Shown here: positions 29,101 through 36,703 of the stretch, one piece after another | Position numbering within the stretch: position 1 is the first letter of the stretch | Layout: every line of letters starts with the position of its first letter | Assembly: GCF_004087915.1 (NCBI RefSeq) | Contig: NZ_CP035108.1 | Location: 124,001 to 188,000 of the forward strand | DNA length: 64,000 bases | From: Geovibrio thiophilus | GTDB taxonomy: Bacteria > Chrysiogenota > Deferribacteres > Deferribacterales > Geovibrionaceae | Direction: 5' to 3' | Translations under genes and position numbers: made by a program | Notes under the pieces: model-generated | What the model was told of the DNA's origin: nothing | Databases searched by the model: none | What the model saw: the letters and a program-made list of their open reading frames with translations, nothing else

Positions 29101-31470
<2,370 letters not shown>

Positions 31471-31513
31471 TCACCTGACTTTTTATTTCAAACCGCGGCT
31501 GAAAACCGCAAAA

Positions 31514-31530
31514 GCGGGACATAAGCCCGC
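31514..31530 (-). terminator. Hairpin between recF and gyrB
   Basis: On the minus strand GCGGG and CCCGC flank CTTATGT, followed by TTTTGCGGTTTTC. The T-run is short and interrupted, so this could be a partial terminator or attenuator between recF and gyrB. Confidence 0.45.
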
Positions 31531-31555
31531 AATGTATTAAAAGGCGTGTGAACAC

Positions 31556-32563
31556 TCACAGCCTTATTGTTCGTATATCGCTGAATATACGGTTTTTTAC
31601 CCCTGTCATAATGACCTGCCTCTTGCCTGAGAACATTGAGAAAAAGGCAGCCGAACGTTTTTCATCCAATCCTGCTTCAAAATCATCTAAAAGGGTTATT
31701 ATATCAGTTTTGAGCATTTCTTCAACATCTAATAAAATTGCCGCTAAAACAAGAAGCTCAAATGTTTTTTTCTGACCGTAGGATGAGAACTTGTCATAAA
31801 TTCTTCCGGTGTTCCTGCTGTAAAATCTGTCCCTGTGGACACCGTAAAGACACTTACCCGCCGAAGCCTCTTTCCGCATAATTTCAGTGTCGCCCGTATT
31901 TGTGACATAGTCCAGAGTAAAAAATTCGTCTTCGCCCCCGAAGCCTGCGTACATAGCTTCAAGCTTTGAGTTTATCATTCCTGCTGCGGATTTTCGTCTT
32001 AATGATATTTTATCACAAACTTCTGTAAGTTTCTCGTTTACGGTTTCGATGTAGTCTATGTCCGGTCTCTGCTTCTGAAGCTCAGCGGTTTTTTGTGCGA
32101 CCAGCCTGTTGAAGTACCTGAGATCAAAGATATGCGCCCTCTCCCTGTAGAAACAGAGACGGTCAATGAAGTTTCTTCTTATCTTCTGCTCCTTCGCCAG
32201 AATTGTGCTTGTATCGGGAGAGTAGCAGAAAACAGGGTTGGAGGTGAGATAGTCGGGAATATCCAGTACACATACACCGTTCTTCTTCAGCGTTCTGACG
32301 TCGTCAAAGAAATAAATCAGGCTGCCCGAATCGTCTTCGGAAAAATACTCGGCTTCGATACGGAGAAATTCTTTGCCGAATCCGGTAACGCTTTTGGGAG
32401 AAGGTTCTTTGAAGCTCTTGAGGTTGAGGAGAAGATAAACGGCTTCGACAACGCTTGTTTTGCCGGAGCCGTTTTCGCCCTCTATGAAAGTTGCCTTGTC
32501 AAAACTGTAGTTTGAATCGGCATGGCATCTGAAATTCTGTAAGCGTATACTCTCTATCAGCAT
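31556..32563 (-). CDS. recF: DNA replication and repair protein RecF
   Basis: RecF loads RecA at single-strand gaps in the RecFOR pathway. The 335-residue SMC-like ATPase has Walker A GENGSGKTS near 30, a signature region (SYGQKKTFELLVLAAI) and Walker B ITLLDDFEAGLDEKR. The ATG shares its A with the dnaN stop (TGATG), giving tight coupling. It is slightly shorter than the E. coli protein, and divergent, as usual for the family. RecR, its partner, is encoded at 42744. Confidence 0.94.
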   Translation of the reverse strand: MLIESIRLQNFRCHADSNYSFDKATFIEGENGSGKTSVVEAVYLLLNLKSFKEPSPKSVTGFGKEFLRIEAEYFSEDDSGSLIYFFDDVRTLKKNGVCVLDIPDYLTSNPVFCYSPDTSTILAKEQKIRRNFIDRLCFYRERAHIFDLRYFNRLVAQKTAELQKQRPDIDYIETVNEKLTEVCDKISLRRKSAAGMINSKLEAMYAGFGGEDEFFTLDYVTNTGDTEIMRKEASAGKCLYGVHRDRFYSRNTGRIYDKFSSYGQKKTFELLVLAAILLDVEEMLKTDIITLLDDFEAGLDEKRSAAFFSMFSGKRQVIMTGVKNRIFSDIRTIRL

Positions 32564-33669
32564 CAGAACTTATCGATGGAAATGGGAACCACCAGATATT
32601 TGTAAGATTCATCCTCAGGGAGGATAACCGCCGGGCTTCGCCTCCCCTGCATCTCAAGGGAAAAATACTCGGAATGTATATTGGAAACAATCTCAAGCAT
32701 ATGGCGGGCGTTGAAGATGATGTCCATGTCCTCGCCGTTGTAGATTATGTCGTCCATGGTCTCATGACCCTGACCGTACTCGGTCTCAAGGCTGTTTACC
32801 GAAAGATTGCCGTTGTTGAAGGAAAGAACCACGCCGTGAGTTATCTCACTGGTAATCGCGGATACCCTTCTGACCACTTCAACAAAGGATTTCGTGTTTA
32901 TCTTAGCCTTTATCGGGTATTCAACCTCGAAAAGCTTGGTTATGCTTTTTATATATTTCTCTATCAGCTTGGAGTAGATGACTATATCACCGACTTTGAA
33001 GAGAACCTGCTTCTTGTCGGTTTCAACATCCACAAACTCGGTAATATCAAGGATCTTCATCAGCTCCATAATGGTCTTTTTGGGAATGTTTATGGTAAAC
33101 TCGTCTGAAAATTCCTCTTCAAAACCTGCTTTTGAGGTGGCTATCCTCTGAAAATCCGCTGCGGATATTTCAAGCCTGTGACCGTAAACGCTGAAATGGG
33201 CTCCAGTGTACTCGATCTTGGATGAGTCGTTAGAGATGCAGAATGCCGTCCTCTTGAGGAGGGTCTGCAAAGTATCACTCTTCACCTTAATGAAGTACTC
33301 AGGTGTGATTTCAGACATGGTAGGGAACATCTCAGGGCTTATGGTAGACAGACGGAAGCTCGACTTGCCCGATTTGATGTTGAGCTTGGAGCCGTCGTGA
33401 TAAAAATCCACCACTGCTCCTTCGGGAAGCTCCTTCAGAATGTCCATCAGCTTTTTGCCTGACACGGTGGCGGAGCCTATCTCTTCCACCGCCGCCTTTA
33501 GCGAGCCTGAAAAACCTATCTGCATGTTTGTTGAACGAAGGGTTACCGTATCGCTTTCAGCTTCGATTAGGATATTCTGAAGCACCGTATTCAGGTTCTT
33601 CGGGCTGGTGTAGCTGTTTGCATACTGGACGAAAGGGAAAATATCGTCCCTGACAACTTTAAACCTCAT
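32563..33669 (-). CDS. dnaN: DNA polymerase III sliding clamp (beta subunit)
   Basis: DnaN forms the ring-shaped dimer that tethers DNA polymerase III to DNA. The 368-residue protein has three similar domains of about 120 residues. It shows the family N-terminus (VVRDDIFPFVQYANSYTSPKNLNTVLQNILIEA) and the conserved C-terminal YKYLVVPI. GGGGAG lies four bases before the ATG. It is the first gene leftward of the candidate origin; dnaA, which often precedes it, is absent. Confidence 0.97.
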   Translation of the reverse strand: MRFKVVRDDIFPFVQYANSYTSPKNLNTVLQNILIEAESDTVTLRSTNMQIGFSGSLKAAVEEIGSATVSGKKLMDILKELPEGAVVDFYHDGSKLNIKSGKSSFRLSTISPEMFPTMSEITPEYFIKVKSDTLQTLLKRTAFCISNDSSKIEYTGAHFSVYGHRLEISAADFQRIATSKAGFEEEFSDEFTINIPKKTIMELMKILDITEFVDVETDKKQVLFKVGDIVIYSKLIEKYIKSITKLFEVEYPIKAKINTKSFVEVVRRVSAITSEITHGVVLSFNNGNLSVNSLETEYGQGHETMDDIIYNGEDMDIIFNARHMLEIVSNIHSEYFSLEMQGRRSPAVILPEDESYKYLVVPISIDKF

Positions 33670-34002
33670 GGACTCCCCTGCTTTATATATTAATGTAATT
33701 TTAATAGTAAGTAATAATAGGGTATCTTGAAACTGTTTACAAGTGATATTTAGTCTTGTCTGTTAAGGTTTTCGGTGTTGAAAAGTTATGTGGTAAACTA
33801 CTGATCATTTTTACACATTATACAGCAGGATGAATTATTATTGTTGAAATATCCGTCTAATGTTTATATCTATATGATTATTCCCAAGCAGATCACACGT
33901 GTTCAACACATTTTTGACATTCTTGATTTGTGTTGGTATATTTACGTTGAAGCCCGAAAAAGGGATATATTATTACTCTTTTGAGTTTACAAGGCAGGGA
34001 AA
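33670..34002. other. Candidate replication origin (oriC) in divergent AT-rich gap
   Basis: This 333-bp gap is strongly AT-rich and separates leftward dnaN-recF-gyrB-gyrA from rightward genes. One sequence fits the DnaA-box pattern TTWTNCACA exactly (TTTTACACA, 33809-33817). Another on the opposite strand is one base off (33789-33797). A weaker one is at 33902. The palindrome ACACGTGT is at about 33896-33903. Three parS sites surround the locus. With so few DnaA boxes and no adjacent dnaA, the assignment rests mostly on gene order and strand polarity. Confidence 0.55.
33914..33942 (+). promoter_or_regulatory. Strong sigma-70-type promoter for the tandem hfq gene
   Basis: TTGACA, a 17-bp spacer and TATATT lie about 60 nt before the tandem hfq start. 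This is the best promoter match seen in the window, and it lies inside the candidate origin. Confidence 0.75.
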
Positions 34003-34506
34003 ATGTCTATTTATGCCCAGATTGAATTTGTGTTCATGCACAATGCGAGGAATAAGAACGTTCCGTTGATGTTCATTATGCGCAACAAGGAACGGTTCAG
34101 GGGAAAGATTGTGGATTTCGATCAGTATCACTTCATTATAGACGATGCTGATATTAAGATTCTGCTCTCTAAGAGGGATATTGCGACGGTCGCTTCTGCG
34201 AAAACCGTTGTGGATATAGACTTCATCAGTAAAATTTATTACCACACGCATCAGGGCAAGCACCCGAGGCACACACGCCCGCCCATGCAGGATATTTTTC
34301 TGAACGAAGTGCGCAAATCCAAGTCTCCTATTATAAGCTTTCTGACCAACGGGGTTAAGATAAGAGGCTCTCTCATAGGGTTTGATAATTATACTATTCT
34401 CACATCCTTTGAAGGCAGGCAGCAGCTTCTTTACAAAAGCGCTATTTCAACTGTATTCCCCCTCTACCAGTACGGTGAGATAATAAAATACGATGACGAG
34501 AGATAA
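34003..34506 (+). CDS. Tandem Hfq protein (two Sm-like domains in one chain)
   Basis: Hfq is a hexameric RNA chaperone for small RNAs. This 167-residue protein holds two Hfq-like domains. The C-terminal one (about 94-156) is clear: QDIFLNEVRKSKSP, LTNGVKIRGSLIGFDNYTIL and YKSAISTVFPL, matching the Hfq Sm1 and Sm2 motifs, with Ser where most Hfq have the His of YKHAIS. The N-terminal one (about 6-66) keeps the pattern with IMRNKERFRGKIVDFDQYHFII and SKRDIATV. A His/Pro/Arg-rich linker (about 76-94) joins them. By inference, three chains could build a pseudo-hexamer. It is followed 3 nt later by a receiver gene. No ordinary hfq or miaA is present here. Confidence 0.88.
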   Translation: MSIYAQIEFVFMHNARNKNVPLMFIMRNKERFRGKIVDFDQYHFIIDDADIKILLSKRDIATVASAKTVVDIDFISKIYYHTHQGKHPRHTRPPMQDIFLNEVRKSKSPIISFLTNGVKIRGSLIGFDNYTILTSFEGRQQLLYKSAISTVFPLYQYGEIIKYDDER

Positions 34507-34509
34507 AGC

Positions 34510-34881
34510 ATGAAAGATATTAAGATTCTTGTCGTGGACGATGAGGAGCACACGAGGCTCGGCTATGCCGAAGTTCTTGAGATGGAAAACTTCAAGGTGA
34601 GCACGGCGGAAGACGCGTTTAAGGCGATAGAGCTTCTTAAACAGGACAAATTCGACATAGTTGTGACAGACCTTCGTATGCCGGAAATGGACGGTCTGGC
34701 GTTTCTTGAAAGGCTTAAGCAGATAGATAAGAATACCAAGGCGATTATGATAACCGCCTTCGGCTCATTCAAAACATATAAAAAAGCCAGCGACAGCGGA
34801 GTGGTTATCTACCTGAACAAGCCTGTGCGTGCGGCTGAGCTCATGGAAGCGGTGCACGCAGTGGTTGCTATGAACGACTGA
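34510..34881 (+). CDS. Stand-alone receiver-domain response regulator
   Basis: A 123-residue single receiver domain of the CheY/Spo0F type with no output domain. Key residues are present: the acidic pocket VVDDEE near 8-13, phosphoacceptor D54 in VVTDLRMPEMDG, Thr in MITAFGS near 82, and Lys in YLNKPV near 104. It starts 3 nt after the tandem hfq stop, so it is almost certainly cotranscribed. A terminator follows. The partner kinase and the output are unknown; the operon suggests a link with RNA-based regulation, but this is inference. Confidence 0.92.
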   Translation: MKDIKILVVDDEEHTRLGYAEVLEMENFKVSTAEDAFKAIELLKQDKFDIVVTDLRMPEMDGLAFLERLKQIDKNTKAIMITAFGSFKTYKKASDSGVVIYLNKPVRAAELMEAVHAVVAMND

Positions 34882-34903: not shown

Positions 34904-34940
34904 AAGCCCCTTTCCGTTGAGAGAGCAGGGGCTTTTTCTT
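34904..34940. terminator. Bidirectional terminator between convergent genes
   Basis: AAGCCCC and GGGGCTT flank a loop of about 17 nt. TTTTTCTTT follows on the plus strand. It ends transcription from the hfq-receiver operon and abuts the stop of the convergent RACE-like gene, which it may also serve. Confidence 0.85.
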
Positions 34941-36703
34941 TATCCCTCGCCTTCAAATTCAGACTTAACCTTCTCAAAGATTCCTTCAAATATTTCGTCC
35001 TCTTCCAGCGATATGTCCTCACCCATCTTAAGTGTGCTTTCAATGTATGAAAGAACCGTGGACTTGTGGAAAAAATTGATCGCGAACAGTGTGGGATCTT
35101 CAGAGAATGTGCGTATAACCTCATGGTACCTTTTGGGAACCATCTCAAGTGTTATCATACTGTCCGCCAGCTCCTTCACGGGGAAGAGAGAGTAGAAAAT
35201 GACCGTGTCCGGCTTGCCGCACCGTTTCTCCGCATATTTTATGGCGGCATGGATGAAGTTCCGCAGAACAAAAAGATCATCAAGGGCAGCCTGAGGGATA
35301 AGCATTTCGTGACCGGAGTCAATTTTGAATGACTGACCGCTGAACTTGGCTATGAGGCGTATGTGGTGACCGCCCTCAAGCCCGTCACCGACGAGAGACA
35401 TCTTGTCCGCCAGCTTGAACTGCCTTGAGAGCAGCCCCTTGCTGTAAAGCAGCGCCGCTGTCTTAAACAGCACCGAGAGCGATATTGAATCCGGCGGAAG
35501 ATCAGCGTTCTTCTTCTCATAGCTCATGAGGTCATCCGCGATTTTTGTCACAGGGTTCCTGCCGCCTGTCTTTATATGCTCAAAAAGAAAGTCGCTCCTG
35601 AGGGATGCGTCCATTCCCATTATGGTTCCGCTGTTGAAAAAGTAAATTTTCTCTAATGCGTCAAGGGGTATTATCATTTTGCGTCCGGATGTCTGGTTGA
35701 GGAAGCGGAAGAATTTCAGAATATCCTTCGGTGAGCCCGCCGGCTGTATGACCTCGCAGAAAAGACCGTTGTCGGTGAAGGAGCAGTAATTTATCAGCCC
35801 GAAGACGTTTTCGCCCTCGAAATGCTTCTCACTGAGGATCAGTATAGCTCTCTCATAACCGCTGTAGCGGAGGCTAGAGTCAAGAAACTGCTTCAGCTCG
35901 CCCTGACGGAGAAGTTCAGCTATGGTTCTGTCGGTCTCTATGAAATCCTTTGAGGATATTCCGCCTATGCCCGCTGAATAGTGGAAGTAGGTTATGCCTC
36001 TTGGTGCCTGAATGAGAAGCAAACCGTCCGTGCTGTAGTCCACGTCTCTTTCCTCCGGCTCCTCCTCAGGTTCAGGCTCCGGCTCTGGTTCCGTGTATTT
36101 CACGATAACAGGCTCCTGCTCCTCTTCCTGCGCTGGTTCTTCCCCGGGTTCATGTTCTGCTGCGGATTCTTCCTCGTACTCCGGCTCATCCTGCTGAGAA
36201 TGGAACATTCCGCCTGAGAGGACAGACTTAAACTCGTTTTCGTCCTCCTCGGAGTTCTCGTGCTCCTCTTCTTCCGTGTGTTCCTGCTCAGGCTCTGCCA
36301 TGCCGGACATTAGCGGAAGTTCGTCAGCTCCGTACACGTCTGCGGCTTCCTCAAGCTTGGCAAGGGTCTGCACCGAGAGCACGCAGGGATCGTCATTCGC
36401 TCTTTTGGCAAGTTCGTCCGTATCTATGACTATATCGCTTTTCACCGCATATTCGCACGCAAGGCGTATGCCCATGCTGATGCTGAGCTCGGAGAGTGAT
36501 CTCCGTTCAAGACGTGTGGGCTTGTTGATATTTTTAGTCTCTATCCTTATTTTGCATTTGCCGCACTGACCGTTGCCGCGGCAAAGGCTCGAAATTTTTA
36601 TTCCGTTCTCCTCCAGCGCCGTGAAAAGGTTCTTGCCGGATTTGACCTCAAAGCTTATATCCATGTTCTTGACATAAACCGTGTGTTTTTTTGAAAGGAA
36701 CAT
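34940..36703 (-). CDS. 2Fe-2S ferredoxin domain with degenerate RACE/ASKHA-like region and acidic linker
   Basis: In this 587-residue protein, residues 1 to about 95 form a ferredoxin domain with Cys at 41, 47, 50 and 83 (CRGNGQCGKC, then LACEY). This is the spacing seen in reductive activators of corrinoid enzymes (DUF4445-type RACE proteins). An extremely Glu-rich linker follows (about 133-225). The C-terminal 360 residues align loosely with the RACE ATPase domain (YSAGIGGISSKDF, SISLSVLFKTAALLYSKGLL, ELADSMITLEMVPKRYHEVIRTF). The usual DIGTT-type phosphate motifs and GN..GA element are not seen, so it may not hydrolyse ATP. No corrinoid methyltransferase gene is nearby. It converges on the hfq-receiver operon. 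Function unknown. Confidence 0.68.
   Translation of the reverse strand: MFLSKKHTVYVKNMDISFEVKSGKNLFTALEENGIKISSLCRGNGQCGKCKIRIETKNINKPTRLERRSLSELSISMGIRLACEYAVKSDIVIDTDELAKRANDDPCVLSVQTLAKLEEAADVYGADELPLMSGMAEPEQEHTEEEEHENSEEDENEFKSVLSGGMFHSQQDEPEYEEESAAEHEPGEEPAQEEEQEPVIVKYTEPEPEPEPEEEPEERDVDYSTDGLLLIQAPRGITYFHYSAGIGGISSKDFIETDRTIAELLRQGELKQFLDSSLRYSGYERAILILSEKHFEGENVFGLINYCSFTDNGLFCEVIQPAGSPKDILKFFRFLNQTSGRKMIIPLDALEKIYFFNSGTIMGMDASLRSDFLFEHIKTGGRNPVTKIADDLMSYEKKNADLPPDSISLSVLFKTAALLYSKGLLSRQFKLADKMSLVGDGLEGGHHIRLIAKFSGQSFKIDSGHEMLIPQAALDDLFVLRNFIHAAIKYAEKRCGKPDTVIFYSLFPVKELADSMITLEMVPKRYHEVIRTFSEDPTLFAINFFHKSTVLSYIESTLKMGEDISLEEDEIFEGIFEKVKSEFEGEG

Follow-up and report, generated by a model that had tools for sequence, protein, structure and literature searches.

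A two-lobed Hfq protein encoded beside a stand-alone receiver in Deferribacterota: a candidate RNA-binding ring under phospho-control

The window analysed here is a stretch of 64,000 nucleotides of the Geovibrio thiophilus genome (contig NZ_CP035108.1, positions 124,001 to 188,000). Within it, a gene for a tandem Hfq protein (tHfq) is followed at once by the gene for a stand-alone receiver (Table 1). The receiver domain spans residues 6-115 of the 123 residues of its protein, and no output domain accompanies it. A promoter-like site is located approximately 60 nt upstream of the tHfq start, and an inverted repeat resembling a terminator lies beyond the receiver; since the folding energy of this repeat is not better than that of shuffled sequences, it is a weak candidate. 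An Rfam scan of the tHfq region gave no match. The product of the convergent gene on the far side carries a 2Fe-2S (Fer2) domain at its N-terminus, and the rest of this protein is acid-rich and otherwise unmatched.

Table 1. Features of the tHfq locus (window positions) and of other Hfq-like loci in further genomes (positions within the locus named).
Feature	Position	Strand	Description
Promoter-like site	33914..33942	+	TTGACA-17-TATATT, TG before -10; 11/12 consensus matches, consensus scan only
Tandem Hfq gene (tHfq)	34003..34506	+	167 aa; two PF17209 stretches; orthologues in 25 genomes of the phylum
N-terminal diverged Hfq lobe	34015..34209	+	residues 5-69; PF17209, hhalign, Foldseek
Conserved linker	34210..34278	+	residues 70-92; VDIDFISKIYY and basic/His stretch
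C-terminal Hfq lobe	34279..34464	+	residues 93-154; starts PPMQDIFLNEVRK; PF17209
Conserved C-terminal tail	34465..34503	+	residues 155-167; EIIKYD motif
Stand-alone CheY-like receiver gene	34510..34881	+	PF00072, 103.1 bits, sole domain; 3 nt past tHfq
Terminator-like inverted repeat	34904..34934	+	AAGCCCCT...AGGGGCTT then T-run, between convergent genes; read from the sequence
Fer2-domain protein gene	34940-36703	-	587 aa, convergent to receiver
f9 Hfq-like ORF	L063 7898-8353	+	adjoins htpG-like gene
f9 Hfq-like ORF	L064 7857-8312	-	adjoins htpG-like gene
f20 HTH-Hfq gene pair	L094 4854-5927	-	
f20 HTH-Hfq gene pair	L095 4618-5624	+	
f20 HTH-Hfq gene pair	L096 5065-6053	-	

The Pfam Hfq model (PF17209) matches two stretches of the whole tHfq protein with 111.4 bits. 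Taken separately, the C-terminal half scores 85.8 bits (E 1.5e-24; residues 95-154) and the N-terminal half 30.8 bits (E 2.2e-7; residues 11-69), both above the curated cut-off of 27 bits, and the two halves share 28% identity over 54 aa when compared by BLAST. An hhalign comparison of 17 N-lobes with 13 canonical Hfqs gave a probability of 95% (E 2.3e-8). The AF2 model of the whole-protein monomer, built on a 20-sequence alignment, contains two complete Sm folds, each with alpha1 and five strands, at a pTM of 0.76: the N-lobe comprises H7-17, E22-26, E31-39, E43-48, E51-56 and E60-65, and the C-lobe H95-106, E110-114, E119-127, E131-136, E139-144 and E148-153. The mean pLDDT per block is approximately 93-96 in the N-core and 79-91 in the C-core, and it is low in the linker. 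With this model, Foldseek returns Hfq structures. Folded by itself, the N-lobe again forms alpha1 and a five-stranded Sm barrel (mean pLDDT 71, core blocks approximately 84-86), and the best PDB matches of this isolated model are all Hfq chains. Based on these profile and model data, tHfq almost certainly holds two Sm folds, and a chance Sm match at residues 1-70 is ruled out by PF17209, AF2, Foldseek and hhalign together. The sequence-only reading of this DNA had proposed two Hfq-like domains, the N-terminal one diverged; both are borne out, also when residues 1-70 alone are compared with Hfq.

The residues of the two lobes were compared across 25 tHfq proteins in E. coli Hfq numbering. The C-lobe retains Q8, D9, N13, R16, K17, G34, F39, D40, Y55 and K56 in every protein (Q96, D97, N101, R104, K105, G122, F127, D128, Y144 and K145 in tHfq numbering), as well as G29 and V30 in 23, K31 in 22 and F or Y at position 25 in 23 of them. 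The N-lobe keeps F39 and D40, with Y42, in all 25, but lacks the distal-site residues Y25, G29 and Q33 and the proximal residues Q8 and D9. It carries instead E8, F9, H/Q13, I25, K29, E30, R33 and D58, and because these substitutions are conserved too, the N-lobe has changed its role rather than decayed. The rim patch N13-R16-R/K17-F39 is complete in the C-lobe of all 25 proteins (N, R, K, F), whereas the N-lobe holds only R16 (21/25) and F39 (25/25) of it. Lys56 is invariant in each lobe. On the other hand, His57 of the Sm2 motif Y/F-K-H, part of the proximal U site, occurs in neither lobe of any of the 25 proteins; position 57 is R, N, K or Q in the N-lobes and N, S or T in the C-lobes. In the protein of the window, the residue is Arg in lobe 1 and Ser in lobe 2, in agreement with the serine that had been pointed out earlier in the second lobe.

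The linker contains the invariant residues D71, I75, S76, K77, Y79, Y80 and H90. The linker had been described as His-rich, which is true of the G. thiophilus protein, but in the relatives its character is mainly basic, with K and R, and H90 is the only invariant histidine. In the tail, Q156, E159, I160, I161, K162, Y163 and E166 are invariant among 20 aligned orthologues, and the EIIKYD motif is found in none of the canonical Hfqs compared. Judged from these alignments, the conserved linker and the tail are features foreign to Hfq. The dN/dS values of tHfq range from 0 to 0.08 in comparisons unsaturated at synonymous sites, and between genomes G000 and G021 the two genes differ by 43 synonymous changes while the proteins are identical. 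Purifying selection acts strongly on each of the two lobes and on the linker, and this rules out that tHfq is a pseudogene or that one lobe is in decay.

The receiver gene directly follows tHfq in all 25 tandem genomes, with a gap of -14 to +14 nt and a product of 120-125 aa. A receiver profile search found one strong orthologue in each of these genomes (E 3e-56 to 3e-63), always beside tHfq, and none in the 26 genomes without tHfq; the next receivers score 3e-29 or weaker. The association with a lone receiver that had been noted in this single genome, where the two genes lie 3 nt apart, is therefore far stronger across the phylum than one genome could show. D10, D11, D54, T82, K104 and P105 are invariant and make up a complete phosphorylation pocket. 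The first helix, DDEEHTRLGY, is very constant and could be a docking face for a kinase or for tHfq. Neither a histidine kinase nor a second receiver partner was found among the neighbours examined. Between genomes G000 and G023 the receivers are approximately 60% identical and the tHfq proteins 95%; the receiver is thus by far the faster-evolving of the two. In all likelihood, tHfq and the receiver are a functional pair, although the coupling of the genes leaves physical contact between the two proteins unproven.

An ordinary hfq gene (74 aa) is also found in the genome that carries tHfq, a single contig of 2,997,552 bp; it is located at C1:1,179,573, where miaA and the end of mutL flank it. 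Since this is the classical mutL-miaA-hfq locus, tHfq is an additional paralogue. The sequence-only reading had counted such a standard hfq as half of a case against itself, and the gene is indeed present. In a survey of 51 Deferribacterota genomes, full-length tHfq occurs in 25, at 43-100% identity, namely in all genomes of families f1, f3, f4, f5 and f8 and in three of the four of f2. The remaining f2 genome (G008; 92% complete, 170 contigs) has canonical hfq but neither tHfq nor the receiver orthologue, an absence that may be an assembly gap. Canonical hfq is present in all 25 tHfq genomes; f10 has canonical hfq only, and f9 has it together with a divergent Hfq-like ORF. The 20 genomes of f6 and f7 (G029-G048), two families of Deferribacterales, show no Hfq of any kind at the thresholds used and no tandem-type receiver. 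Because the GyrB tree does not settle the branching position of f6 and f7, their absence of the pair is not claimed as a joint loss, and the pattern of 25 against 26 genomes may reflect few evolutionary events. tHfq appears to be old within the order Deferribacterales.

Beyond the phylum, a scan of sampled genome contigs returned, apart from Deferribacterota, one canonical Bacillota Hfq; the out-of-phylum genomes sampled gave no full-length homologue, and a larger survey, likewise a sample, gave no out-of-phylum ORF with two Hfq matches. In a lobe tree of approximately 70 columns with long branches, the N-lobes form one clade and the C-lobes another, a topology that fits internal duplication and fusion alike. 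The f9 ORF, from relatives in the same class, was considered as a candidate missing link. It encodes 151 aa; a degenerate Hfq lobe scoring 37.2 bits makes up the C-half, the N-half has no significant match and is unassigned, and no receiver lies near the ORF. Another arrangement was observed in f20, where three genomes of approximately 1.5-1.6 Mb have two adjoining genes, each with an HTH-like N-terminal part (a weak Pfam match) and a C-terminal Hfq domain; a biotin carboxylase gene adjoins them, and canonical hfq is also present there.

The genes around the pair mostly vary by family and include dnaN, an ArsR-type regulator, YceD, a pseudouridine synthase, a transposase, PheT and a cytochrome peroxidase. 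In four of six families (f1, f4, f5 and f8), the gene for the Fer2 protein lies downstream in convergent orientation, and the gene order up to ribF-rimO-bamD-serS-rsmI is common to f1 and f8. It follows that this flank looks ancestral, whereas the dnaN side is specific to f1, the only family in which dnaN adjoins tHfq. The gene had also been placed at a candidate replication origin. In fact, the cumulative GC skew of the window turns at approximately 30-34 kb, beside dnaN-recF-gyrB-gyrA, and the origin in this family may lie at window positions 30000-34000 or so; however, dnaA is found at contig position 325, approximately 158 kb from the tHfq locus. Together with the restriction of the dnaN adjacency to f1, this rules out an origin-linked function of tHfq and makes its location incidental.

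By combining the conserved residues with the gene linkage, a mechanism may be outlined. tHfq and the receiver would be made from one two-gene operon, and three tHfq chains would close into one six-lobed Hfq-like ring, with C-lobes of near-canonical type and altered N-lobes taking turns around it. Since each chain has two lobes, joined by a linker of approximately 25 residues that in the model would be long enough to connect ring neighbours, the simplest way to build a ring of six lobes would be from three chains. Such a ring would keep three near-standard distal sites for purine-rich mRNA and three near-standard rim patches, all on the C-lobes, and its proximal pore would be lined by six lysines and no histidines; with this make-up, its RNA specificity is proposed to differ from that of ordinary Hfq. 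An unlinked histidine kinase would phosphorylate the receiver, which would then dock on the ring, with the conserved linker and the EIIKYD tail as candidate surfaces, and switch the RNA binding or the partners of the ring. It is probable that tHfq binds RNA, and a three-chain ring is on balance likely. For phospho-control of the ring by the receiver, the chances seem even, and the explanation as a whole, a three-chain RNA ring with two kinds of site under receiver control, is also given an even chance. When the ring is considered together with its obligate receiver, control of its RNA binding by phosphorylation would be the most economical reading. In its fullest form, that of a two-component system in which the phosphorylated lone receiver would act in trans and the output would be a pseudo-hexamer of three chains whose RNA sites alternate between two types, the proposal is tentative and is itself rather doubtful.

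The loss of RNA-contact residues from the N-lobe and of His57 from both lobes implies that RNA binding could be weak, and the same losses would fit a protein that has given up RNA chaperoning and serves as an oligomeric scaffold for the signalling pathway of the receiver. The conserved linker VDIDYISK-YY, which is not part of the Sm fold, and the EIIKYD tail resemble protein-binding motifs, in favour of such a scaffold. Nevertheless, the distal and rim residues of the C-lobe and Lys56 of both lobes are invariant or nearly so, a degree of conservation that is difficult to account for unless they touch RNA, and a scaffold role is regarded as improbable. A further reading, also unlikely but slightly less so, is that tHfq enters or caps canonical Hfq rings, in mixed hexamers or by competition, and thereby tunes the sRNA network, while the supply of tHfq is governed by the receiver. 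Every tHfq genome has canonical hfq and the 20 genomes of f6 and f7 lack both, and the beta4 and beta5 strands through which Hfq rings close are present in both predicted lobes. However, the occurrence of canonical hfq without tHfq in f10 and G008 means that any dependence is one-way, the absence in f6 and f7 may be a single event, and the fusion of the lobes through a conserved linker is better suited to self-contained three-chain rings.

Receivers commonly act alone in phosphorelays, and the linkage described here rests on gene order and co-occurrence; the receiver might therefore serve a separate phosphorelay, be merely co-expressed with tHfq and never touch it. Perfect co-occurrence argues against this, as does an immediate adjacency that persists while the surroundings vary and neither a kinase nor another partner for the receiver lies close by, and it is held to be the least probable of the alternatives. 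If the phospho-controlled ring is real, an obligate and dedicated signalling partner would place an RNA chaperone, and with it post-transcriptional regulation, under direct phospho-control; the regulation of Hfq is usually ascribed to its abundance and to competition among RNAs. In a naturally alternating ring, the six sites of Hfq could moreover be studied one lobe at a time, and tHfq with its receiver offers a two-gene system ready for testing.

The fusion of two Hfq domains is not unprecedented, because Hfq with two Sm domains has been described in Zymomonas mobilis (ZMO0347) and six other Sphingomonadales species, and the authors already raised the question of whether three such chains form a hexameric ring (PMC2877685). 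The rare fused Hfq mentioned in the sequence-only reading is thus real in Sphingomonadales (PMC2877685); for the example it gave, Novosphingobium, two hfq-like copies are described in N. aromaticivorans (PMC3474761). The comparison with the Sphingomonadales proteins was made solely through NF010691 / PRK14091 (NCBIfam, 176 positions), taken as the model of tandem-length Hfq. tHfq scores 81.0 bits against it, below the curated cut-off of 270, and its C-lobe matches the first repeat best while the weak N-lobe matches the second, so the lobes differ in their order of divergence. Like those proteins, tHfq has two Hfq domains in one chain; it differs in coexisting with a separate canonical hfq and, further, in its obligate receiver.

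Hfq2 of Burkholderia cenocepacia is likewise a second Hfq-like protein beside a normal Hfq (PMC3474761, PMC7074383), but its extra length is described as an unstructured glycine-rich tail and not as a second Sm domain. Four Deferribacteraceae species are reported to have two Hfq-like proteins, and the excerpted text of that report mentions neither the tandem form nor the receiver (PMC7074383). With canonical Hfq (PF17209, TIGR02383), tHfq has in common the fold, the Sm1/Sm2 layout, the rim and distal residues of the C-lobe and Lys56; it is set apart by two lobes per chain, the lack of His57, the conserved linker, the EIIKYD tail and the operon with the receiver. A limited literature search found no paper that joins Hfq to a dedicated receiver, and the partnership of tHfq with its receiver is so far undescribed, whereas two-domain Hfq as such is already known. 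ANTAR-type response regulators such as EutV and NasT carry the receiver and an RNA-binding domain in one fused chain. Both these regulators and the tHfq pair couple a receiver to control at the RNA level, but the proposed output of the latter would be a separate Hfq-type ring.
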